Under the pieces are notes generated by a model. It saw only the letters and a list, made by a program, of their open reading frames with translations, was not told the DNA's origin and made no database searches. The position numbers were made by a program, and so were the translations under genes. 24,375 bases of DNA from a virus: positions 1 through 24,375 of IMG/VR virus record IMGVR_UViG_3300009181_000324, one strand, 5' to 3'. Positions 3,136 through 22,041 of the stretch are shown here, piece after piece. Position 1 is the first letter of the stretch. Every line of letters starts with the position of its first letter.

Positions 3136-3431
3136 TCCGCGTCCACCATGCGCCAGTACGTCACATCGCGCACGCTCCGACATGTCACCAGATTTTCAGC
3201 GAGCATTTCAGCAAGAATCCGCGTTGCCGTTTGGTGCGACACGCCTTTTAGTCGGCTGAACGCGTGCGCCGTGAACTCGCCCGCTTCGGCTTTGCGGACG
3301 GAATATCGATTTGCGATTTCAAGGAGCCGCGCGACGTCAAAACCGCCGCCATGATTCGCGGCGCTTCCGGCACCGTCCACATCAACCGTTCTTTTTCCCA
3401 TTCGCCGTCTTTTTGGATTTCGATTAACCAT
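3132..3431 (-). CDS. Winged-helix DNA-binding protein
   Basis: A 99-residue protein. Its last 70 residues look like a winged helix: FDVARLLEIANRY, then SRLKGVSHQTATRILAEMLAENL as helix-turn-helix, then a short wing (VTCRSVRDVTYWRM). It probably binds DNA and regulates transcription. The start is uncertain: ATG at 3431 has GGTGGGG just upstream, and ATG at 3401 (89 residues) has a weaker site. Either way the first 150-180 bases overlap the end of the phosphoesterase gene in another frame, which is unusually long. Its location just before the predicted late promoter makes a late regulator plausible. Confidence 0.6.
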   Translation of the reverse strand: MVNRNPKRRRMGKRTVDVDGAGSAANHGGGFDVARLLEIANRYSVRKAEAGEFTAHAFSRLKGVSHQTATRILAEMLAENLVTCRSVRDVTYWRMVDAE

Positions 3432-4171
3432 GTCCCCACCGTGAACGCTTCTCGCCTCGTGACGCGATGCGTGAACGCAGTCTTCAGCTGCCATGCCGGG
3501 ATCACGGCACCCCAGCGCTGCAGGCCGTACGCTTCGCCGGTGTCGGCGACGCGGTGCACGTGTCCGCGCAGGACGACGTGCGTGTCCGGGCGCTCCATCA
3601 GCATTGCCGCCGTTTCTCGCCGAATCGCTCCGCCGTAGAGCCGCGGGTCGTCGCCCCCGCCTCCGACGTGGTGCGCCACATCGAAATGAACGCCGGCCAC
3701 GGTGAGCAGCAGTCGGTAGAACGCGTGCATGCCCGTCGACGGATCGCGCCGTGCGCCGAGCTCCCGGCCGATGGCGTAATCCGATGCTGAGCCCTTTCCG
3801 CTGTGAGCTTCCGTGCCACGCAGGACGTACAGCTCATGCGCAAGCGCCGCGAGCGGCTGCATGACGTCAAGCGCGGCCGTCGCCTGGATTTCGGGTGCCT
3901 GGCTCAGCAGCTGCGACGACTCGTGGTGTCGGCCGTCGACGAATTCGCCCAGGCTCACCACGACGACGTGATAGCCGCGCCTGCGCAGCGCACGCACGCG
4001 CGCCGTCATCTCGAGCCAGCGCTCCCATAGCCAGCGCTGCGCCTCGTTCGGCGTGTATCGCCCGCCGTCTTCGAGGCGCACGCCGTGCGCCGGGCACAGC
4101 GCGACGGATGAGCCGACGTGCAGGTCTCCGACGGGCACCACGACGATGGGCGACCGGGCGTAGCGCGTCAT
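3248..4171 (-). CDS. Calcineurin-like metallophosphoesterase
   Basis: The 307-residue protein has the layout of the two-metal calcineurin-like phosphoesterase superfamily: GDLH at 15-18, a GEFVDGRHH segment at 75-83 where the family has GDxxD, RGTEAH at 118-123 in place of GNHD, a His pair at 167-168 and GHVH at 203-206. It should hydrolyse phosphodiester or phosphomonoester bonds, perhaps in DNA. The substrate cannot be inferred, and the second and third motifs are non-canonical. The basic tail from about residue 265 overlaps the winged-helix gene, so the true end of the fold is probably near 260. Its ATG overlaps the stop of a 21-codon upstream frame. Confidence 0.8.
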   Translation of the reverse strand: MTRYARSPIVVVPVGDLHVGSSVALCPAHGVRLEDGGRYTPNEAQRWLWERWLEMTARVRALRRRGYHVVVVSLGEFVDGRHHESSQLLSQAPEIQATAALDVMQPLAALAHELYVLRGTEAHSGKGSASDYAIGRELGARRDPSTGMHAFYRLLLTVAGVHFDVAHHVGGGGDDPRLYGGAIRRETAAMLMERPDTHVVLRGHVHRVADTGEAYGLQRWGAVIPAWQLKTAFTHRVTRREAFTVGTWLIEIQKDGEWEKERLMWTVPEAPRIMAAVLTSRGSLKSQIDIPSAKPKRASSRRTRSAD

Positions 4172-4885: not shown

Positions 4886-4899
4886 TTCACACACACACG

Positions 4900-4932
4900 A
4901 CGCCGGGCGTTTAGCGCGCCCGGCGTTTTTTT
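4900..4932 (+). terminator. Strong intrinsic terminator after the 4367 gene
   Basis: A perfect 10-bp GC-rich stem (ACGCCGGGCG / CGCCCGGCGT) with a 7-base loop is followed by seven T on the plus strand. It starts 15 bases after the stop codon of the 4367 gene. It ends only 5 bases before the next start codon. Confidence 0.9.
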
Positions 4933-9190: not shown

Positions 9191-9835
9191 TCACTGGTAT
9201 TGCGTGAAAAGGAACTCCCAGTAGCACTCCTGCGTCTCATCCAGCATGTTCAAGATTTTTGTTTCGCGCGCATATTGCTGCGGACGCAGCCGCTCGAGTT
9301 CTTCGTAACCGGCAAGCCACAAAAGGCAGTTTGAGTCCCAATACACCATGCCGTGCTGCTGCCCGCGCATTGGCTTCGTCCACTGGTGGTCTTCGTGCTG
9401 AGACAGGTAGGACAGCGGGCGCGCAAACAGTCCCGTTGGGCTTTTCCCTTTCAGTTGGTCGGGCGTATCTTTTGCTTCGTTTCCGGGCTTATGCAGAAAA
9501 TACATCCACACGGGGAACGGCGTCGACTCCTGCACGCTCATGTAGTGCTCGTAGTGGTGCAGGTCAATGCCCGTCGTCCATCTTTCGCGCGTTCGATTCC
9601 ACGAAAACGCGCTCTTGTGTTTCGCCTCCACCCAGAACGTTCGCTCGCTGCCCATCACCAGCATGTCGGGAGCGACCAGCGTGCGCTCCATCTGAAACAG
9701 CGTCGGCCCTTTGTAGTCCCCGGTCTGTTTCTCGTAAACAGGAAGCACGCTGTATCCCTGCGACATGAGCCAGAGCGCAATCAGGCTCTCGCCCACTTTG
9801 CCGCCTTCCAGCGACGTCTCAAAATTGCTACGCAT
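9191..9835 (-). CDS. PD-(D/E)XK superfamily nuclease-like protein
   Basis: A 214-residue protein with a restriction-nuclease-type core: Glu16 in GKVGESLIA, APD at 55-57, then WVEAKHK with Glu70 and Lys72. Aromatic-rich sequence follows (HHYEHYMSVQESTPFPVWMYFLHK), as in Holliday-junction-resolvase-like or Vsr-like members. It may cleave or process DNA in replication or recombination. The ATG at 9835 has GGAGG five bases upstream and overlaps the end of the ParB-Dam gene by 8 bases; the longer upstream frame is only a shadow of that gene. Specific family membership is uncertain. Confidence 0.75.
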   Translation of the reverse strand: MRSNFETSLEGGKVGESLIALWLMSQGYSVLPVYEKQTGDYKGPTLFQMERTLVAPDMLVMGSERTFWVEAKHKSAFSWNRTRERWTTGIDLHHYEHYMSVQESTPFPVWMYFLHKPGNEAKDTPDQLKGKSPTGLFARPLSYLSQHEDHQWTKPMRGQQHGMVYWDSNCLLWLAGYEELERLRPQQYARETKILNMLDETQECYWEFLFTQYQ

Positions 9836-11006
9836 CAATCCTCCGGACAACTGCGCCGTGCTTGCCAAATGCCTCAGCAAATTTCTGCACGTTTTGCCCA
9901 AGATACACGACCGCGTTGGAGTGCGTCGGCGCGCCGGAGCCGTTGATGAAATGGATGCGCCGATAAACGAAGCAGACGGTGTGCTCCCAGAGCGGATGAA
10001 ACCACTTGTTGCCGGGCACTGCGTTGACGAGCACCATCGCCTCGGTGATGTTGCCTGCTGCGTATTCCTCGCAGGCGCGTCGCACCCAGCGCGCCTGATT
10101 GGTTTCCGACTCGCCTTCGTCCTTGCCATACGGCGGATTCATCCACACGCGGCCGGCCCACGGCTTGCTGAATCCGTCTTCGTCGATGGTGTAGTAGGTT
10201 TCGGCGCGGACGTTGGCGTTTGCCTCTGCGCAGCTGGCCGGGTCAAGATCAACGCCGCCCATGACTTCGCGCGCGGAGTCGAGGAACTCAAGCGGCGTGT
10301 AGTACTCGTTGGATTTGGAGGAGTTGATGAGCTGGTGCGAAGACACTTGCTTGAATGCTTCTTTTGGCGTTACGCCTTCGTCCAGTTTGCCGATGAATTC
10401 CCGAATAGCAGCCGGTGTTTTAGCTGCCACTTCTTTCGCCTGCGGAATCGTCAACTCGCCGCTGCGCACACGTTCGAGCAGTTCAGGCGCTTCGTCGCGC
10501 AAGCGTTTCGCGTCGCTAACGTACTGGCGATTCGTGCCGACTAGTTGCGCGGCTTGTTGCACGGCTTCGTTAGTGTGTTGTTCGCGCGGCTCCTCAAACC
10601 CTTCCCCAATTAATTGGGGAAGGGTTTTTGCATTTCCGCGTCCGCCTTCGTTTCCACGTTCTCCCGCTGCACGCTGCCGTTCCTTCGCCTCCGCCTCCAG
10701 CATCGGCAACACGTCCATAGCCACCGTCGCTTTCTGCGACGACGACAAATGCCGACGCTGCAAGTTCAGCGACACCACGAACGACACCAGCGAGCCTGCG
10801 CCGTCCCACACGCGCGTATCCGGCTCAATGCCGAGCTGCTGGCACGCGCGGTAGCGGTTGCGCCCGTCGATGATCTGGCCGTCGTGCACGTAGATGGGCT
10901 GACGCTGCCCGTTCAAGCGAATGTCTTCGACGAGCGCGGAGAACTCGTCGTCGCTCATCATCGGGAAGATGTTGGCGACTTCGTGGAAGGTGTATTGAGT
11001 TGTCAT
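9828..11006 (-). CDS. ParB/Srx-like domain fused to Dam-type DNA adenine methyltransferase
   Basis: A 392-residue two-part protein. Residues 1-105 resemble the ParB/sulfiredoxin fold (PIYVHDGQIIDGRNRYRA at about 37-54). A helical segment with NRQYVSDAKRL at 159-169 is typical of ParB-like helix-turn-helix linkers. Residues 233-392 are the phage Dam family: YYTPLEFLDSA, DLDPAS at 253-258, catalytic NPPY at 290-293, and a C-terminal block FYRRIHFINGSG-like. It should methylate adenine N6 in DNA, perhaps guided by the N-terminal module. The start overlaps the stop of the replication gene as TGATG. A 32-bp perfect palindrome lies inside the linker region of the gene. Confidence 0.88.
   Translation of the reverse strand: MTTQYTFHEVANIFPMMSDDEFSALVEDIRLNGQRQPIYVHDGQIIDGRNRYRACQQLGIEPDTRVWDGAGSLVSFVVSLNLQRRHLSSSQKATVAMDVLPMLEAEAKERQRAAGERGNEGGRGNAKTLPQLIGEGFEEPREQHTNEAVQQAAQLVGTNRQYVSDAKRLRDEAPELLERVRSGELTIPQAKEVAAKTPAAIREFIGKLDEGVTPKEAFKQVSSHQLINSSKSNEYYTPLEFLDSAREVMGGVDLDPASCAEANANVRAETYYTIDEDGFSKPWAGRVWMNPPYGKDEGESETNQARWVRRACEEYAAGNITEAMVLVNAVPGNKWFHPLWEHTVCFVYRRIHFINGSGAPTHSNAVVYLGQNVQKFAEAFGKHGAVVRRIDA
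10596..10627. repeat. 32-bp perfect palindrome inside the ParB-Dam gene
   Basis: Two 16-base arms, 10596-10611 and 10612-10627, are exact reverse complements with no spacer (core CCCCAATTAATTGGGG). It encodes the TLPQLIGEGF stretch, in the linker between domains, where the protein sequence is probably free to vary. On the plus strand a T-run follows (five T from 10625), so it could also end antisense transcription. It could be a binding site for a dimeric protein, possibly the encoded ParB-like protein itself. Confidence 0.85.
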
Positions 11007-12052
11007 CAGTTCGTCTCTTCTTCGAGTTCGCGCCGGGCGCGCTCTTCGTTGGCGCGGCGCTGCTCGTCGGTGAACGTCACCTGGGCGCGCCGGAACTTCC
11101 CGTTGCTGCCGCCGTTGTTCGCCGTCGTCGTCGCAGGCTTCGGCGAGTGCCTGGATTCTTCAAACTGCACCCAGAGCTCGGTGATGCGCTCAGGAGTCGG
11201 CTTGTCGCCGCGCTTGCCGCGCCAGTCGTTTGCGTGCCACCACGCCGCGAAGTCGGCGACGGCCGCAGGGTCAATCCCGCGCTGCGCCAGGTATTTCGCG
11301 GCAACGCTGATGCGCTTAGCCGACATCGGAGCCTTCGCGTCCATGACGCAGGCCTTGCCGACCGCGGCGAAGCAATCGCCGTAAAGCGGTGACTTCGCCG
11401 GGCGCTCAGGGCGTACCGGTTCTTCGCAAGCGGGAGCGTCTGGAATGGATTCGGCGCGCGGCTGTTCTGGAGTCGGCGTCGGTGCAGGTATTGGCGCGCT
11501 TGCAGTCTGCTGCACCTGAACGTCCATTGAAAGGCGAGAGGTCGAAGGCGTCGCGCCAGCGGCGCGAGAGCTTTCTTTCTCTTTCTTTGTTTTCTTTCCT
11601 TTCTTTTGTGTGTGGAGTTTTTCCACTGGTAGCGGTGTACTTTCTCCACTGGTAGCGGTGGAGTTTTTCCACTCCTTCCAGTGGAGTTTTTCCACTAGTG
11701 CAGAATTTCCACTAGTGGCGTCGTCGCTGTCTTCTGCCGCCACGCGGAACTCGTAGACGTAGGAAGCGCCGCGGTCCGTCATCACCTCGCGGCGCGCAAT
11801 CCACTTCAAGCGCAGGGCTTCGTCGATGGCGCTGATAACCGTTTTGCGGGACATTCCGGTCTGCGCTTCCAGCTGAGACAGGCTAATCAGGTCGGCCTGA
11901 CGGTGCCACCCGCGCGTTCGCCGGAGGACGACGCACACGACGCGGAACGCGGCGTTGCTCAGGCCCTGCCCGCGGTCGAGCAGCGCGTTGGGAATCTGCG
12001 TGTAGTTCGGCTTTTCGCCGGTCCACTCTTCGGGCTTTCGTTCGTCGGTCAA
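11006..12052 (-). CDS. Phage O-like replication initiator
   Basis: A 348-residue protein. Residues 15-105 match the Phage_rep_O-type winged helix (NYTQIPNALLD, LSNAAFRVVCVVLRRTRGWH, LEAQTGMSRKTVISAIDEAL). A low-complexity, Ser/Thr/Lys-rich middle (110-250) is followed by a C-terminal part (RISVAAKYLAQRGIDPAAVADFAAWW) that may contact a helicase or loader. It is expected to bind the origin and recruit replication proteins. The start is TTG at 12052, with AAGGAG seven bases upstream. The gene contains 23-bp iterons in its middle, the arrangement of lambda O and its origin. No helicase or polymerase gene is visible in the window. Confidence 0.8.
   Translation of the reverse strand: MTDERKPEEWTGEKPNYTQIPNALLDRGQGLSNAAFRVVCVVLRRTRGWHRQADLISLSQLEAQTGMSRKTVISAIDEALRLKWIARREVMTDRGASYVYEFRVAAEDSDDATSGNSALVEKLHWKEWKNSTATSGESTPLPVEKLHTQKKGKKTKKEKESSRAAGATPSTSRLSMDVQVQQTASAPIPAPTPTPEQPRAESIPDAPACEEPVRPERPAKSPLYGDCFAAVGKACVMDAKAPMSAKRISVAAKYLAQRGIDPAAVADFAAWWHANDWRGKRGDKPTPERITELWVQFEESRHSPKPATTTANNGGSNGKFRRAQVTFTDEQRRANEERARRELEEETN
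11571..11610. other. Polypyrimidine A/T-rich tract beside the iterons
   Basis: The plus strand here is almost only C and T (ctttctttctctttctttg and similar); the minus strand is purine-rich and encodes the Lys/Glu-rich KKGKKTKKEKE segment. It directly abuts the iteron array. In lambda an A/T-rich stretch next to the iterons is where the origin melts, so this is a candidate unwinding region. Confidence 0.5.
11611..11718. repeat. Origin iterons, four 23-bp units plus a partial fifth
   Basis: TCCACT recurs at 11622, 11645, 11668 and 11691, exactly 23 bases apart, and again at 11708. Each main unit contains the dyad GTGGA-GTTTT-TCCAC or a close variant; the second unit is the most diverged on its left arm. 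The first two share TCCACTGGTAGCGG. Since 23 is not a multiple of three, successive copies are read in different frames, so the repetition is selected at DNA level. The last unit ends in the palindrome CCACTAGTGG. These are likely binding sites for the O-like protein. Confidence 0.85.
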
Positions 12053-12062
12053 GAATTGCTCC

Positions 12063-12091
12063 TTGCCATCTGCCGCCGACCGTGATACAGT
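12063..12091 (+). promoter_or_regulatory. Promoter of the OOP-like antisense RNA
   Basis: TTGCCA (5/6 match to -35), a 17-base spacer, then TACAGT (4/6 match to -10), reading rightward in the gap between the XRE and O-like genes. The spacer and -10 contain CCGTGATA, a half-site of the shared operator seen at 13130-13145, so the same repressor might act here. Confidence 0.55.
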
Positions 12092-12097
12092 CAGTAG

Positions 12098-12186
12098 CGC
12101 ATGGCTCTTTGGTTGCTAGACCACAGAGTTCTGTGTCTCCGGCGCGGATTCCGACTTGGTCGTTGGGAATCCGCGCTTTTCTTTTT
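12098..12186 (+). ncRNA. OOP-like antisense small RNA
   Basis: A transcript of about 89 nt is predicted from the 12063-12091 promoter to the terminator at 12142-12186. It would contain a short hairpin CACAGA-GT-TCTGTG at 12122-12135 and then the terminator stem. It overlaps and is complementary to the last 71 bases of the XRE gene at 12116-12394, which reads leftward. In lambda, OOP RNA (77 nt) starts between cII and O and is antisense to the 3' end of cII, reducing its expression. Position, orientation, size and two-hairpin form all agree here. Sequence homology to OOP is not claimed. Confidence 0.65.
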
Positions 12187-12394
12187 CCAGCATTCCCGCA
12201 AGACGCAGCTCATGCATGGGTTCCAAATTGAACGCAAGCGCCATGCGCACTACGAGCTGCGCGCTAGGGTTTTTTCGCCTGCGCTCGACGTTGCATATCT
12301 GCTGCTGAGTCACCCCGGTCGCCCGCGCCAGATCGGCCTGTGTCATGCGCCGCGCTTTGCGCAGTTCTCGGATTCGTTGTGAGTAGCCGGTCAT
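12116..12394 (-). CDS. XRE-family regulator, first gene of the replication operon
   Basis: A 92-residue protein with a Cro/CI-type helix-turn-helix at about residues 17-45 (MTQADLARATGVTQQQICNVERRRKNPS). A short amphipathic helix and a hydrophilic tail follow. It has no protease or ligand domain, so it is Cro- or CII-like in size. The ATG at 12394 is chosen because the longer frame would start within the operator/promoter. A promoter with a shared operator lies just upstream. The 3' end carries, on the opposite strand, the terminator of an antisense RNA. It probably controls the early switch together with the repressor at 12631-13074. Confidence 0.82.
   Translation of the reverse strand: MTGYSQRIRELRKARRMTQADLARATGVTQQQICNVERRRKNPSAQLVVRMALAFNLEPMHELRLAGMLEKEKRGFPTTKSESAPETQNSVV
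12142..12186 (+). terminator. Intrinsic terminator of the antisense RNA
   Basis: A perfect 11-bp stem (GCGCGGATTCC / GGAATCCGCGC) with a 13-base loop, then TTTTCTTTTT, reading rightward. It lies inside the XRE gene, which is on the other strand. The minus strand has no T-run after the stem, so it does not block the leftward operon. Confidence 0.88.
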
Positions 12395-12406
12395 TGGTCT
12401 GTGATG

Positions 12407-12437
12407 ATATAACACTACGGTAATAAACACAAGTCAA
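12407..12437 (-). promoter_or_regulatory. Leftward early promoter with operator O1
   Basis: On the minus strand TTGACT (12437-12432, 5/6) is followed after 17 bases by TGTTAT (12414-12409, 4/6); TTATAT two bases further on is an alternative -10. The operator TAACACTACGGTAATA (12410-12425) overlaps spacer and -10 and matches 14 of 16 bases at 13130-13145. It would drive the XRE and replication genes leftward. Confidence 0.6.
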
Positions 12438-12471
12438 AGAAAAGCCGCTGCTGGAATTTCAGCAGCGGCTT
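12436..12471 (-). terminator. Terminator of the repressor gene
   Basis: A perfect 12-bp stem (AAGCCGCTGCTG / CAGCAGCGGCTT) with a 6-base loop. On the minus strand it is followed by TTTTCTTTG. It ends leftward transcription of the 12631-13074 gene and lies immediately before the -35 box of the leftward promoter, insulating the two units. Confidence 0.85.
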
Positions 12472-12518
12472 GACGTGACTTGGAGTGTCACTGCCGCCAA
12501 GGCAGCTTTATATCTCAA

Positions 12519-12552
12519 GTAATTAAGCTGCAAACTTAATTACCCCCCCCCC
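12519..12552. promoter_or_regulatory. 9-bp inverted repeat and C10 tract downstream of the repressor gene
   Basis: GTAATTAAG (12519-12527) and CTTAATTAC (12535-12543) form a perfect inverted repeat with a 7-base spacer, immediately followed by ten C. The 200-base gap 12431-12630 also holds the terminator and a weak CTGCC/GGCAG hairpin at about 12491-12505. No T-run follows the repeat, so a protein-binding site is more likely than a terminator. Its role is unknown. Confidence 0.5.
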
Positions 12553-12630
12553 GACATAACTATTTTATGGTTGACGCGTGCGCTGGCCACCGCGTTGATT
12601 TGTTCAAGCAACTTTGCCGCTTTAGCAGCT

Positions 12631-13074
12631 TTACCGTGCCTTGCCAGTTTGAGAATTGCTGCCACCAGTCGAATCAGCATCTGCGCCCCCATTGTTCAGC
12701 ATGGCTTCGAGCATTGCAACTGCGACCGCCATGCGTTGCTTGTCGTGCATCATGAGCCGCACGGCTCTTACGAGCCGGATGGCAACGGGATCGCTGCTCC
12801 CGTTCACGACAATTGCATCAGTTATAGGCGCATAGCCCGCAAGTTGCAACAAGGTGTTTACGTCCTCCTCGAGGAAGTTCGCAATGCCAATTACCACTTC
12901 TGCGGATGGGCGTCGTTTGCCCGTTACCAGGTTATGCACCTGTGCCTGGGCGATGCCCGCAGCGGTGGCGAGGTCCTGCTGTGTGTAGAAGCGTTTCGTG
13001 GCCGAATTAACGCGCGTGCGGATGATGCGCATCAGCCACGCGCTGAACGGCGTTTCGAATGTGATGTCCGACAT
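12631..13074 (-). CDS. XRE-family repressor in the immunity position
   Basis: A 147-residue protein with an XRE helix-turn-helix at about residues 29-57 (FYTQQDLATAAGIAQAQVHNLVTGKRRPS). A short helix-rich part and a polar tail (GGADADSTGGSNS) follow. There is no visible S24 autoprotease domain, so induction by RecA-stimulated cleavage is unlikely. It sits alone between outward promoters that share an operator, as lambda cI does. The frame extends to 13098, but ATG at 13074 (MSDITF) is taken; no Shine-Dalgarno site is evident, so a leaderless message is possible, as for lambda cI made from PRM. It has its own terminator. Confidence 0.78.
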   Translation of the reverse strand: MSDITFETPFSAWLMRIIRTRVNSATKRFYTQQDLATAAGIAQAQVHNLVTGKRRPSAEVVIGIANFLEEDVNTLLQLAGYAPITDAIVVNGSSDPVAIRLVRAVRLMMHDKQRMAVAVAMLEAMLNNGGADADSTGGSNSQTGKAR

Positions 13075-13122
13075 ACAGATATGGTAGCAGAAAAACAACT
13101 GCAGTAAGTGTCTAATTGGCTA

Positions 13123-13151
13123 TTGACAGTATCACTACGGTGATATAAAAT
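13123..13151 (+). promoter_or_regulatory. Rightward early promoter with operator O2
   Basis: TTGACA (6/6), a 17-base spacer, then TAAAAT (5/6) form a strong promoter for the long rightward operon, with a predicted start near 13158. The spacer holds TATCACTACGGTGATA (13130-13145), with 6-bp half-sites TATCAC and GTGATA around TACG. A bound repressor would cover the region between the -35 and -10 boxes. Confidence 0.82.
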
Positions 13152-13212
13152 CACAGCCATCGACGGGCGAACGACCAACTAACCAGCCCGGCGACGTGAA
13201 GGAGACACACAG

Positions 13213-13707
13213 ATGAACACCAAAACCTACACCCAGCGCAGCAAGGGCGGGCGAACGACGGCGCGCCTCGGACGGATGCATGACGGTGCAGTGCTTGCCC
13301 GCGCATTCGATGGAGACGTCACCGACGAGGCGCGTGTCACCATGGCGCGCGAGATCAAGACCGCGCTGAAGCGGTTCCGGGCCGCTGCGGCCGGCGAGTT
13401 CGACGCGCTGGCGCAGGCCATCCCGGGCCGCTGCGAAGGCGACCAGCGCAGCGCCACAACGATCCTGCGCGAAGTTGCGCGCGCGAACGGCGACGCGGCT
13501 GCGCTCGCTGCGCTCATGAACGAGTGGATTGCCCGCGCCGTGCAGGCCGAGCTCGCATCCGACGAAGCGCGCAACGGCTGGCGCGGCGCGGGCAAGACGT
13601 GGGCACAAGTAGAGCCGGTGGCCGGCGCGGCCGACGCCGAGCGCGCCAACTATGCGACAGCATCGCGCATGGCGCGTCTGATGCTCATGACGGGGGTGGC
13701 AGCATGA
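13213..13707 (+). CDS. Unknown protein, first gene of the rightward operon
   Basis: A 164-residue Ala-rich, mainly helical protein not recognised. It has a basic, Thr-rich start (YTQRSKGGRTTARLGRM) and repeated helix-forming stretches (ALKRFRAAAAGEFDALAQAI). No membrane segment is seen. AAGGAG lies 9 bases before the ATG, and the leader from the promoter at 13123-13151 is about 55 bases, so it should be one of the first rightward products. In lambda this place holds N, but nothing here resembles an arginine-rich antiterminator beyond the basic N-terminus. The stop overlaps the next start as ATGA. Confidence 0.68.
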   Translation: MNTKTYTQRSKGGRTTARLGRMHDGAVLARAFDGDVTDEARVTMAREIKTALKRFRAAAAGEFDALAQAIPGRCEGDQRSATTILREVARANGDAAALAALMNEWIARAVQAELASDEARNGWRGAGKTWAQVEPVAGAADAERANYATASRMARLMLMTGVAA

Positions 13708-13934
13708 GCCGCTCTACCGGCATCACTGGCCGCGCGATGGCCGTCGGGGTAGCGCGCGCGTGGCTCCGGCACGCGGCAGACCGCGCGCAGGTCCTGATGA
13801 GCCACGAGGCGCGTATTTGCCTGGCAGCCGCAGAGCGCGCCACGCAGAGCCCGGCACTGACGGCGGAAGACCGCGCGCAGCTCATGAGCGAGCGCGCAGC
13901 CGTGGTGGCTGCGATGCCGTGGGGGCGAGCGTGA
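13704..13934 (+). CDS. Small unknown helical protein
   Basis: A 76-residue Ala/Arg-rich protein (VGVARAWLRHAADRAQVLMSHEARICLAAAERA), predicted helical, with no recognisable motif. The ATG overlaps the previous stop (ATGA) and the TGA overlaps the next ATG (TGATG), so it is translationally coupled on both sides. That coupling and its codon pattern support a real gene. Confidence 0.55.
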   Translation: MSRSTGITGRAMAVGVARAWLRHAADRAQVLMSHEARICLAAAERATQSPALTAEDRAQLMSERAAVVAAMPWGRA

Positions 13935-14101
13935 TGCCGAGCACACCAAAGGGATGGGCCATCAGCGCGCTCGTGCTCTGCGCAATCTGGGGCGTCATGA
14001 TCCTGATCGGATCGTGGGACGCCGAAAACAACGCCGCGTATGCGCGGCACCAGAACTGCCGCGTTGCGCAGGTCGCAACCTGCGCGGAGGCGTCGAAATG
14101 A
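13934..14101 (+). CDS. Single-span membrane peptide
   Basis: A 55-residue product with one membrane segment at about residues 8-28 (WAISALVLCAIWGVMILIGSW) and a short polar tail containing two Cys (NCRVAQVATC). The start overlaps the preceding stop as TGATG and the stop overlaps the next start as ATGA. Function unknown. Small early membrane peptides of phages can affect superinfection or host membrane proteins, but nothing specific is shown here. Confidence 0.55.
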   Translation: MPSTPKGWAISALVLCAIWGVMILIGSWDAENNAAYARHQNCRVAQVATCAEASK

Positions 14102-14202
14102 AAATCGGCATCGGCTATGTGATCGCAATTGCGTTGAGCGTCGTGTTGTGCGTTGGCTTCACCGTCGCTGCGGCGTCGGGGCTTGCCGGGGTGGCGCGAT
14201 GA
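14098..14202 (+). CDS. 34-residue membrane peptide
   Basis: A very small product that is nearly all one hydrophobic segment (IGIGYVIAIALSVVLCVGF, then Ala/Gly-rich). It is coupled by ATGA overlaps to the genes on both sides. It could also be a signal-like or non-functional spacer frame, but three successive 4-base overlaps in one run argue for translation. Confidence 0.48.
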   Translation: MKIGIGYVIAIALSVVLCVGFTVAAASGLAGVAR

Positions 14203-14492
14203 GCGCGCGTGCGCTGTCGGACATCGTCGCGGAAATGCGCGCGCTGCGTGAATCTGCCGATACGGATGAGCCGATGTTTAGTTCAAGCTATTTCGACGCG
14301 CTGCACGCGCAGGCCTGCACCGCAGCCGACGCCGAGGAGGCCGCGGCGTGGCGGGCCTACAACGATTACGTCATCGATGAGTGCGCGTGGCAAGCGCGCA
14401 CAGCAGCGATTGATTCGCTATGGGACACCGTGCGGACGCTCACGCGCTACAGCATGGCGCACCGGGCGGACATGGAACAGGACCTGGCGTAA
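14199..14492 (+). CDS. Small unknown acidic helical protein
   Basis: A 97-residue acidic protein (LSDIVAEMRALRESADTDEPMF; AADAEEAAAWRAYNDYVIDECAW), predicted all-helical, not recognised. The ATG overlaps the stop of the 34-residue membrane peptide as ATGA. It is the last gene before the Bet/RecT-type gene, 22 bases away, and is likely co-transcribed with it. Confidence 0.6.
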   Translation: MSARALSDIVAEMRALRESADTDEPMFSSSYFDALHAQACTAADAEEAAAWRAYNDYVIDECAWQARTAAIDSLWDTVRTLTRYSMAHRADMEQDLA

Positions 14493-14514
14493 GCCGGCCC
14501 AAGAAGGATAAAAA

Positions 14515-15417
14515 ATGGGACAGATGGAAATCACAGGCAGCTCGCAGGCTCTTGCGCCGGTGCGCGACTTCTCGGCGGCAGAGATGGACGTCATCAAAAC
14601 CGTCATCGCGCGCGGCGCGTCCGACGTTGAACTCAAGATGTTCGTGGCAATGGCCACCAAGCTTGGCCTCGACCCGCTGAGCAAACAGATCTACTGCGTC
14701 AAGCGCCACGTGAAGCAGGCCAACGGCCAGTGGGTCGACGCAATAACGATTGTCGTCGGCATCGACGGCTACCGGCTGGCGGCGGACCGCACCGGGCGCT
14801 ACTGCCCCGGCCGTGCGCCGACCTACGAATACGACGACGACGGGCGCGTGACGTCGGCCACGGCGTACGTGCTCAAGCTCGCCGGTGGCGCGTGGCACGA
14901 AGTGTCGGCCGTCGCATTCTGGGACGAGTACGCGCAGACAAACAAAGAAGGCGCGCCGACAGCAATGTGGGTCAAGATGCCGCGGCTCATGCTGGGCAAG
15001 TGCGCCGAAGCGCTTGCGCTGCGCCGGGCCTTCCCGGCTGAACTCTCGGGCGTCTACACCGAGGATGAGATGGCGCAGGCGCAAAACGACGCGCCTCCTG
15101 CGATGGTCGCGCATCCCGTCGTCAACGCGCCACCGGCCATCACGGCGCCGGCGGCAACGGCAAAGCCGCACAGCGGGAATGTTGGTGACGCCATGTGGAA
15201 GATGGAAATCTCCGCGCTCGGCGTCAAGGCGAAATCAATTATCAAAGAAGTCGCCGACTTGCCCGACGAGCAGCGCGAGCGACTGGTGAACGCGATGAAG
15301 ATCGCGCGCGACGTGCTGAGCCAGAACGGGTCCAGCACCGCAGACCATCGCGCGTTCGCGATCTCGGCGCTCAAGCGCGCCATCGGGATCGAGAAGGAAA
15401 AATCGCAGCAGGCGTAG
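14515..15417 (+). CDS. bet: RecT/Bet-type single-strand annealing protein
   Basis: A 300-residue protein with the lambda Bet/RecT-family core. Landmarks are MFVAMATKLGLDPLSKQIY (42-60), an IDGYRLAADRTGRY segment (83-96), then MWVKMPRLMLGKCAEALALRRAFP (151-174) followed by LSGVYTEDEM. The family anneals complementary single strands and promotes recombination with a partner exonuclease and SSB. No exonuclease of the lambda Exo type is next to it; the VRR-NUC or PD-(D/E)XK proteins of the leftward operon could serve, but that is a guess. The C-terminal third is Ala/Pro-rich and then helical. AAGGA lies 7 bases before the ATG. Confidence 0.93.
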   Translation: MGQMEITGSSQALAPVRDFSAAEMDVIKTVIARGASDVELKMFVAMATKLGLDPLSKQIYCVKRHVKQANGQWVDAITIVVGIDGYRLAADRTGRYCPGRAPTYEYDDDGRVTSATAYVLKLAGGAWHEVSAVAFWDEYAQTNKEGAPTAMWVKMPRLMLGKCAEALALRRAFPAELSGVYTEDEMAQAQNDAPPAMVAHPVVNAPPAITAPAATAKPHSGNVGDAMWKMEISALGVKAKSIIKEVADLPDEQRERLVNAMKIARDVLSQNGSSTADHRAFAISALKRAIGIEKEKSQQA

Positions 15418-20202: not shown

Positions 20203-20375
20203 TGGACGCAGAGATTGAAACGTGCGACGGCGGCGAGATGTTGCCGTGGGTGGTCGCCATCGAAAAGCCTTCCTACGGCGACGACCCATGGTTCCGCTCT
20301 TTCTGCCGCGCGATGGCCGAAGGTTTGCTCCACTACAAAAAACAAGATGAACACCTCGAACAGCGAGACGAATGA
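20202..20375 (+). CDS. 57-residue unknown protein
   Basis: A short acidic product (MDAEIETCDGGEMLPWVVAI at the start; GLLHYKKQDEHLEQRDE at the end). The ATG overlaps the previous stop as TAATG, and the end overlaps the recombinase gene by 29 bases. Not recognised. The coupling supports translation; it may only serve to bring ribosomes to the recombinase. Confidence 0.5.
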   Translation: MDAEIETCDGGEMLPWVVAIEKPSYGDDPWFRSFCRAMAEGLLHYKKQDEHLEQRDE

Positions 20376-22041
20376 ATACTGGCGCTCCGGCGAAATATTC
20401 GCGTACGTGCGCAAGTCGCTCGTACTCGGAGAAGAAGATCGCATCAGCGAAGTCAAGCAGCGCGACTCGATTGCCAGCGAATGCGAGCGCCTTGGGCTTC
20501 CGGAGCCGCAGTGGTATTCCGACGTCGACGGACACCGCAGCGGACGGTACGAACACACGCGGCCCGGCTGGCGCGCATGCAAGTCGCGCTTCCTTGCGTC
20601 GCCGCGTTCGGTGCTTGTCGTCTACGAGCTCGACCGCTCGAACCGAAACGTGCAGGCGATGGCAGGACTCATTGAGCGGCTCCGCGTCGCGCCTGAGCGG
20701 CACCGCATGGTGATGGTGATGAACCGCTACGACTCCGCACGCGATGGATACGGCGCGCGTGAAGTTCGAGACCTGCTCGCCGAGTCCGTCAGCGCGCAGT
20801 ACGAAAGCGACAAGGCGAGCGAGCGGATGGCGGCAACAATCGCGACGCTCAAACGCCATAAGCTTCCGTGGGGGCAGCCCGCTTACGGATTCGATCGAGT
20901 CGGAAGCGGCATGAAGTCGCGGCTGAATCCTGCACCGTTTGCCGAACAGGTGAGATTCATTTTTCGCGAGTGGGTTGCTGGCGCCACATTCCGCGCAATT
21001 GTTCAGCGCCTGAATTCCGAAGGGCACCACTATCACAAGAGCCGCATGACAGGGCGCGCCTCTTACCGCTCGCCTGAGCCGTGGACGTATGCACGCGTCG
21101 CCACTTTGCCGGAGATGGTGATGCTCTACGCCGGATACGTGAGCACGGAAAAAGGCGCGACGGTAAAACATGACGTCAAAGACTGCGATCCGGAAACAAT
21201 TCTTGCCGACCACGCGCGCCGATACAGATACACCAGGACCGACGCAGTCACGTCCATCATCGACGACGACATGTGCGCGCAGGTGCTGCGCACGCGGATG
21301 GCGTGGGCGCAGCGCAACTCGAGCGGCCACATGCCTAAAGTCCCCCTGCTCTCCGGGTGCGCGCAACACCTTGGGCAACGCATGCGCTCGCAGACAATGC
21401 GCGGGAAGCGCGTCTATCGCACGCGCTGCGTCGGCTCAGTCGTCATCGACGCCGAGACAGTCGAGAAAGATTTTCTCGGGCACATGGCGGGAATCCGATT
21501 CCCGATCGGCGTCGTCAGCGGCATTCGGGCGGCGCTTGAGGAGCTGGTACCGAGCAAGCGCGATCGCACCAAGGCTCAGACGTCAATCCAGAAATACACG
21601 CGCGGCCTTGCGCAAGCCGAGCGCCGCTACACGCTGGGGGAGATTGACCGCGCTACGTACAATGCACTGCGGGGCGATTTCTCGCAGAGCATTCTGGAGG
21701 CCGAGAAGCTGCTGCGGCAGCCGAGCAGCGCAGACCGCGCCATCGACGCGCTCGAGCAGGTCGGCGAAGTGCTTGCCGCTGCGCCTCCGATTGTGCGCCA
21801 GCGCGCAGTGACGGCGCTGTTTGAGCGCGTGCAGATTTCGCGCGAAGGCCGAGTTGTGGAGCTCGTGCCGCGCCCGTGGGCGCGCGAAGCGTTCGGCCTG
21901 TTGTCGAATGCGTGGGAGCGTTACCAGGCTCACGAAGAACGACCATTAAACCGGGGCGTGGTAACAGACGACGACCACATCGCCGCCGAGTCCATACAGT
22001 GGGTAATCGACAGGCTCCGGCCTGTCGTAGTTCCGAAATAG
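20347..22041 (+). CDS. Large serine recombinase (phage integrase type)
   Basis: A 564-residue protein of the large serine integrase plan. The N-terminal resolvase domain (about 15-160) has YVRKS with nucleophile Ser24, GHRSGRYEHTRPGW (62-75) and YELDRSNRN (93-101, with catalytic Arg). A recombinase domain follows (PWGQPAYGFDRVG), then a coiled coil and C-terminal region. The zinc ribbon expected near 345-385 is degenerate: GCAQH...RTRC retains only two Cys and one His. It should cut and exchange attachment sites to integrate or excise the phage. It sits in a packed operon with no flanking attP visible. The ATG is chosen over an upstream frame because the family starts near this residue. Confidence 0.92.
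   Translation: MNTSNSETNEYWRSGEIFAYVRKSLVLGEEDRISEVKQRDSIASECERLGLPEPQWYSDVDGHRSGRYEHTRPGWRACKSRFLASPRSVLVVYELDRSNRNVQAMAGLIERLRVAPERHRMVMVMNRYDSARDGYGAREVRDLLAESVSAQYESDKASERMAATIATLKRHKLPWGQPAYGFDRVGSGMKSRLNPAPFAEQVRFIFREWVAGATFRAIVQRLNSEGHHYHKSRMTGRASYRSPEPWTYARVATLPEMVMLYAGYVSTEKGATVKHDVKDCDPETILADHARRYRYTRTDAVTSIIDDDMCAQVLRTRMAWAQRNSSGHMPKVPLLSGCAQHLGQRMRSQTMRGKRVYRTRCVGSVVIDAETVEKDFLGHMAGIRFPIGVVSGIRAALEELVPSKRDRTKAQTSIQKYTRGLAQAERRYTLGEIDRATYNALRGDFSQSILEAEKLLRQPSSADRAIDALEQVGEVLAAAPPIVRQRAVTALFERVQISREGRVVELVPRPWAREAFGLLSNAWERYQAHEERPLNRGVVTDDDHIAAESIQWVIDRLRPVVVPK

Follow-up and report, generated by a model that had tools for sequence, protein, structure and literature searches.

Does the junction between an XRE-type regulator gene and an O-like replication gene encode an antisense RNA of the kind known as OOP in phage lambda? 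This question was raised by the phage recorded in IMG/VR as IMGVR_UViG_3300009181_000324, of which the whole 24,375-nt stretch analysed is called the window here. OOP is antisense to cII and acts via RNase III, and its promoter pO is also a replication factor (excerpts of PMC3985674 and PMC5869508). So far OOP has been described as a lambdoid-phage RNA, and whether the RNA or the promoter is the more important is still argued. Excerpts of other reports record an OOP in prophage BTP1 (PMC7067206) and present YdaS/YdaT as equivalents of Cro/CII without sequence similarity (PMC9986795, PMC8630535). In the excerpts given for the matches listed from the open-licence PMC literature, no OOP-like RNA outside the lambdoid phages was recognised.

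Promoter, terminator and gene context

The preliminary description of this locus had proposed a rightward promoter, a perfect 11-bp terminator with a T tail and an RNA of about 89 nt complementary to the last 71 bases of the XRE gene, and at the sequence level all of these were borne out, the RNA as a prediction. As shown in Table 1, the promoter was found at 12063-12091, with 9 of the 12 consensus letters (5/6 in the -35 and 4/6 in the -10 element), counted on a consensus that may not be that of the host. The terminator stem has its arms at 12142-12152 and 12166-12176, is followed by TTTTCTTTTT at 12177-12186 and has a U-tract in the + direction only; promoter and terminator are spaced by 49 nt. 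The RNA start was placed 7 nt after the -10 element and the 3' end is predicted near 12184-12186, which together give the size listed. When the same start rule was applied to lambda it returned 38676, the published 5' end of OOP (-10 from the O start, excerpt of PMC3349717), and it fell within 1 nt of the 5' end annotated in phi80. Since the XRE stop codon lies at 12116-12118, the predicted RNA and the gene overlap over 12116-12186, or 71 nt. The predicted 5' end is about 18 nt beyond this stop, the terminator stem lies 25-61 nt upstream of it, and the -10 element is placed 34 nt upstream of the O-like start.

Table 1 Features of the locus, with positions in the window unless survey loci are named.
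Feature	Position	Strand	Remarks
O-like replication initiator	11006..12052	-	TTG start, AAGGAG upstream; phrog_678 3e-19, PF04492 3e-8
Five 23-nt iterons	11612..11720	-	inside O-like gene
pO-like promoter TTGCCA-17-TACAGT	12063..12091	+	TGn extended -10; score 10.5
5' hairpin, 40 nt	12097..12136	+	takes in the XRE stop codon and some of the XRE/O spacer; from fold
Predicted antisense RNA, about 87-90 nt	12098..12186	+	start inferred 7 nt past -10
Intrinsic terminator	12141..12186	+	perfect 11-bp stem, 13-nt loop, tail TTTTCTTTTT; within XRE coding sequence
XRE/HTH_3 regulator, putative target	12116..12394	-	92 aa; HTH_3 E 2e-12
pR-like promoter of XRE, TTGTGT-17-TATCAT	12404..12432	-	operator 12410-12425 within
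Terminator	12442-12471		between repressor-like gene and pR-like promoter
Repressor-like HTH protein	12631..13074	-	38% identity to XRE over 53 aa (HTH)
Perfect operator palindrome TATCACTACGGTGATA	13130..13145	.	within rightward promoter TTGACA-17-TAAAAT, 13123-13151
Large serine recombinase	20215-22041		phrog_95 integrase
Acinetobacter/Moraxella-type units	L023, L052, L065, L081, L095, L102-L104, L300, L310, L316, L322, L323, L329		predicted antisense promoter-terminator units at stop codons of Cro/CII-position regulators

An operator half-site had also been reported within the promoter, and this claim was not upheld: the window contains C[CG]GTGATA 4 times, which is chance level, and the full palindrome (up to 3 mismatches) matched at 13130 and 12410 only. 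LexA-like boxes, searched with three patterns, were absent near the promoter, and Rfam gave no match at gathering score for the predicted RNA.

The leftward order of genes and signals is repressor-like gene, terminator, pR-like promoter with operator, XRE and O-like initiator. On the way from the repressor-like gene to the terminator at 12442-12471 there is a run of ten C (12543-12552), which might be a slippage tract or an assembly-sensitive site. The O-like gene has the make-up of a lambda-type replication module, namely an O-family initiator with iterons within its gene. A pyrimidine tract on the + strand (11571-11607) adjoins the iterons, and the two likely form a replication origin like ori-lambda; the first iteron is 332 nt into the O-like gene, and iteron 1 of lambda is 348 nt into O. 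Given its serine recombinase, its HTH repressor-like protein with operators and its O-like gene with iterons, this is probably a temperate phage whose control and replication genes are ordered as in lambda. All ORFs between 1152 and 12052 with a PHROG match lie on the minus strand (small + strand ORFs left out). The ORF at 9828-11006 joins a ParB-like N-terminal part to a Dam-type adenine methyltransferase part.

The putative target shows no match to the Pfam CII families PF05269 and PF06892 at E 0.001. The RNA overlap encodes XRE residues 70-92. In a single-sequence model (mean pLDDT 68.5, used for domain limits only), five helices extend to residue 75 and confidence is below 50 at residues 75-89, so that residues 76-92 are outside the helices; this disordered tail may be a place where coding tolerates an antisense terminator. 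CI/Cro pairs often share similarity. Because XRE resembles the repressor-like protein encoded by the same phage, a Cro-like role is at least as likely for it as a CII-like one, and the switch therefore cannot be assumed to work in the direction seen in lambda.

The unit against chance expectation

The elements and the geometry of the unit are real features of this DNA, and their arrangement is not random. The RNA (12097-12188) folds as two hairpins with -42.4 kcal/mol, and 0 of 200 shuffles were equally stable (z -5.40); a run with 50 shuffles gave z -6.6. A sliding fold scan was performed over 2112 windows with 6 shuffles each, and the best 150 were repeated with 40. Ranked above the antisense unit were the iterons (11616-11639) and the terminator on the repressor side (windows 12398-12421); for the unit, the nearest grid window, not aligned to the unit ends, gave -4.0. 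In a recoding test the XRE protein was kept fixed and codons were redrawn from the phage's own usage (n = 3000). None of the recodings reached the terminator score of 30.5 or the folding energy, the best scored 30.0, and 22 scored at least 25.

Promoter matches of this quality are rare as well. Of random 115-nt segments taken from the window, 0.5% reach a score of at least 10.5, and the two strands of the 24 kb together carry 4 such promoters. Terminators scoring at least 30 number four in the window, and a promoter match (score at least 8, at most 115 nt upstream) accompanies only the one in XRE. Two other T-tailed hairpins on the + strand lie inside minus-strand ORFs, at 10596-10627 (score 35) and 4899-4927 (30.0), both at a distance from gene ends and lacking a promoter match, so strong T-tailed hairpins alone are not special in this genome. 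The former is a perfect 32-nt palindrome, AAACCCTTCCCCAATT/AATTGGGGAAGGGTTT, with a T-rich + side, and is located before the Dam part of the ParB-like/Dam ORF. Among the 35 ORF ends in the window, which were called mechanically (at least 60 aa, overlaps filtered, some doubtful), an antisense terminator of at least 20 was found at one, the end of XRE, and this one has a promoter. A count over 88 loci (1.11 million strand-bases) gave 12 pairs of a terminator of at least 25 and a promoter of at least 10, among which the window phage appears twice and lambda OOP once. The pairs in L006 and one of the three in L004 were set aside, since they are not at comparable gene ends.

A probable antisense RNA and competing explanations

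We consider it probable that the segment encodes a self-terminating, OOP-like antisense RNA of about 87-90 nt which would lower the regulator mRNA. The transcription, pairing, RNase III step and phenotype that we infer would run as follows. The RNA would start between XRE and the O-like gene, oppose the regulator-O operon and end at the strong terminator inside XRE. Its partner would be the XRE-O mRNA, at the 3' end of the regulator portion, in cis and also in trans from replicated genomes, and RNase III, by analogy with lambda, might cut the 71-nt duplex, whereby the regulator message would be lost and the O part spared. Convergent transcription from the pO-like promoter may in addition weaken the pR-like operon and act on the origin inside O. 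The outcome would be a dosage-dependent brake on an early regulator, which would favour lysogeny if the regulator is Cro-like or, as in lambda, lysis if it is CII-like.

The same DNA could be read as a terminator only, whose hairpin stops stray rightward transcription before the pR-like region, with an incidental promoter match and no regulatory RNA. This is unlikely. In its favour, the terminator is the stronger element and is unidirectional, the two other T-tailed hairpins on the + strand inside minus-strand ORFs have no promoters, and 22 of the 38 antisense terminators in our survey lacked a promoter of at least 9.5. However, only 0.5% of segments in this genome would offer a correctly spaced promoter of 10.5, the 5' hairpin belongs to a structure with z -5.4, and no source of rightward transcription to be stopped is known between 1152 and 12052, where the scanned ORFs with a PHROG match (small + strand ORFs left out) are all on the minus strand. 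We see a slim chance that the pO-like promoter outweighs the RNA, with convergent transcription interfering with the XRE-O operon or remodelling the origin, as proposed for lambda pO. Such an effect would suit the iterons inside the O gene, and in lambda a pO mutation alters replication and raised oop RNA had no considerable effect on plasmid copy number (excerpt of PMC3985674). Yet the long XRE overlap and the stable structure would be unnecessary for interference alone, and the -10 element is 34 nt upstream of the O start, not over the start as in lambda.

It is very improbable that the inverted repeat CACAGAGTTCTGTG and the 11-bp repeat are DNA sites bound by the regulator or the initiator. 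Inverted repeats do exist here and the phage has palindromic operators elsewhere, but neither repeat matches the operator TATCACTACGGTGATA within 3 mismatches, and the U-tract and the spacing suit termination. That hairpins and a promoter-like string simply coincided in a GC-rich gene end is scarcely credible: although this is a single genome and 22/3000 recodings reach 25 (best 30.0), 0/3000 attain the real score, and the z of -5.4, the promoter rate of 0.5% and the near-OOP geometry all speak against coincidence.

Recurrence among O-bearing loci and comparison with OOP RNAs

If the antisense RNA that we prefer is real, a distant analogue over XRE, together with an excess of such units at regulator ends, would make it possible to ask by comparison whether selection keeps the RNA itself, the promoter that faces the operon or a place close to the origin. 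Relatives of the window phage itself were few. The P0002 search found one close relative among viral contigs, 100% identical over the stretches compared, and no relative among genome contigs; the XRE search returned the same identical contig and 12 loci alike over the HTH only. Among ParB-Dam and RecT relatives, tblastn revealed no further XRE-O pair, and the three loci found in this way that had an XRE-like match showed no comparable module. The sequence of the RecT relative L206 (65%) ends at the end of its repressor gene, and its record is without an O-like match. Three weak O matches were obtained from 369 genomes sampled from one class. No match was found by distant blastn of window 10000-15000 against the phage collection, or by a DNA search of window 11900-12500 against plasmids.

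The survey covered 67 representatives of 268 O-bearing loci, picked by shared 12-mers near O, with phi80 outside it. Many of the loci come from Acinetobacter/Moraxella-type phages and are thus not independent lineages, their hosts being partly inferred from likeness. The promoter-terminator module was located directly at the O junction in 4/67 loci, all four lambdoid, and in 0/63 non-lambdoid O junctions; it was present at 7/201 other plus-strand junctions and at 16/483 plus-strand gene ends. These counts overstate independence because the loci are partly related (the 483 ends form 281 protein clusters and the 16 modules form 10), and L016 670-855, counted among the 16, is a spurious ORF. Antisense terminators were found at 34/219 gene ends upstream of O versus 4/264 for O and downstream (Fisher 5e-9), where lambda cII was counted via the overlapping ORF 3368-3727 and hence placed in the downstream class. 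A promoter of at least 9.5 accompanied 16 of these 38 terminators and was missing from 22, against expectations of 1.35 (random segments drawn from these loci) and 2.79 (shuffles of the tested segments themselves); on the opposite strand of the tested segments the count was 1, and at the mirror position 0. A sense terminator was also present at 10/38 ends, in 9 cases the same hairpin, which is possibly bidirectional.

Family scans were performed for 22 proteins, i.e. those of 21 of the 38 gene ends plus L052, and the others were judged by their first residues. Regulator or DNA-binding families matched at E 0.01 or better in 19/21 (none for L312 and L378), some of the matches, namely L018, L024, L334 and L377, lying under the Pfam cut-off. 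All 10 of the 16 modules that were scanned matched regulator families (Phage_CII, CP76/CII-like, YdaS/Cro-like, HTH_3 and others). For two of the 38 (L307, L315), the gene that ends is itself O-like.

The predicted Acinetobacter/Moraxella-type units mostly carry two terminator types, AAGCCTGA..TCAGGCTT and GCCCCTAG..CTAGGGG, and 19/37 clusters have a promoter of at least 9.5. Hairpins of the form AAGCC...GGCTT may be widespread as terminators in these hosts. As in the window unit, the promoter of these modules is antisense; its spacer is 17-18 nt, it precedes by 35-72 nt a terminator at the regulator stop codon, and several regulator families are represented. They differ in that the terminator is on or beside the stop codon with little coding overlap, further genes lie between regulator and O, and roughly one in four terminators seems bidirectional. 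In Pasteurella phage Pmp13, a terminator with a weaker promoter (8.5) lies at the CII-like stop; no unit was found at the CII/O region of Citrobacter phage Chris1, Aeromonas phage pAEv1818 or Paraburkholderia phage IPK, the one Burkholderia-group phage looked at. Loci L107-L114, of which three are contigs close to 48.5 kb, are identical to lambda over 210/210 bases at the start of O, under assembly names of Chromatium, Shewanella, Pseudomonas, Leeuwenhoekiella, Neobacillus, Streptomyces, Oceanobacillus and Bradyrhizobium, and are probably lambda DNA contamination of these assemblies.

Antisense units of the OOP type may recur in the early regions of phages, where they have perhaps evolved repeatedly, although we put this forward tentatively and on predictions. 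Such a unit would tend to be fixed at the 3' end of whatever regulator, of any family, holds the Cro/CII position before a lambda-type replication region, with the window phage as an instance that has near-lambda geometry and no sequence similarity. The survey also supplies candidate RNAs to seek in existing Acinetobacter and Moraxella RNA-seq.

The scanner used here also recovered lambda OOP, the P22-type oop and the M3 RNA of phi80. For lambda OOP it reported a terminator of 25.5 and a promoter TTGAGT-17-CATAAT with extended -10, 53 nt apart, and the P22-type oop that it found is close to the sequenced P22C-oop (excerpt of PMC13397905). The likeness to lambda OOP held in part. At the sequence level, the window unit has the regulator/O junction, the antisense orientation, the promoter type and the similar size (a sigma-70 promoter and an intrinsic terminator for a 60-90 nt RNA), the two-hairpin form and the stem-to-stop distance of OOP; it lacks similarity in RNA sequence and a CII target. 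Both units sit at the junction of an early regulator with O, antisense to the regulator 3' end, with a 17-nt spacer, an extended -10 and a 5' hairpin followed by the terminator, and in both the origin iterons are within the O gene. The near edge of the stem is 25 nt from the regulator stop here and 24 nt in lambda, where the stem lies 24-51 nt upstream of the cII stop. The predicted window RNA and lambda OOP fold alike into two hairpins, and the sequenced P22 oop likewise folds with two stems. The stretch of cII that OOP overlaps encodes the last 17 aa of the protein, a tail dispensable for CII activity (excerpt of PMC3349717), and the tail of XRE is unstructured in the model. The differences are an overlap of 55 nt in lambda and 71 nt in the window phage, an RNA start predicted 23 nt beyond the regulator stop versus about 18 nt, a promoter over the O start codon versus upstream of it, and Phage_CII as the target versus XRE/HTH_3.

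The suggestion of a conserved control was not supported, as no sequence similarity was found to the lambda, P22-type or phi80 RNAs. When the RNAs alone were compared, the score was reached by 127/1000 shuffles for window-lambda, 315/1000 for window-P22-type and 768/1000 for window-phi80. Sequence similarity, on the other hand, does not define the OOP group well, because lambda-phi80 also fails (240/1000) and lambda-P22-type (locus L380) is modest (10/1000); the lambda-phi80 similarity appears when flanks are included and resides in the flanks with the start of O. According to the excerpt of PMC13397905, P22 oop is likewise antisense to the end of the CII analogue C1, as a promoter-terminator unit beside the replication genes. 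It differs from the window RNA in its 63 nt, its Phage_CII target and some sequence similarity to lambda OOP. The phi80 M3 RNA, annotated as 'homolog of lambda oop RNA', also lies beside an O-like gene and a YdaT-type regulator that has no relation to lambda CII, and it shows no similarity to lambda OOP when the RNAs only are compared; it differs in being 60 nt long and wholly intergenic, with flanks that include the start of O and resemble those of lambda. By its layout, the window RNA would be an analogue of OOP, and the missing similarity does not separate it from the phi80 M3 RNA.
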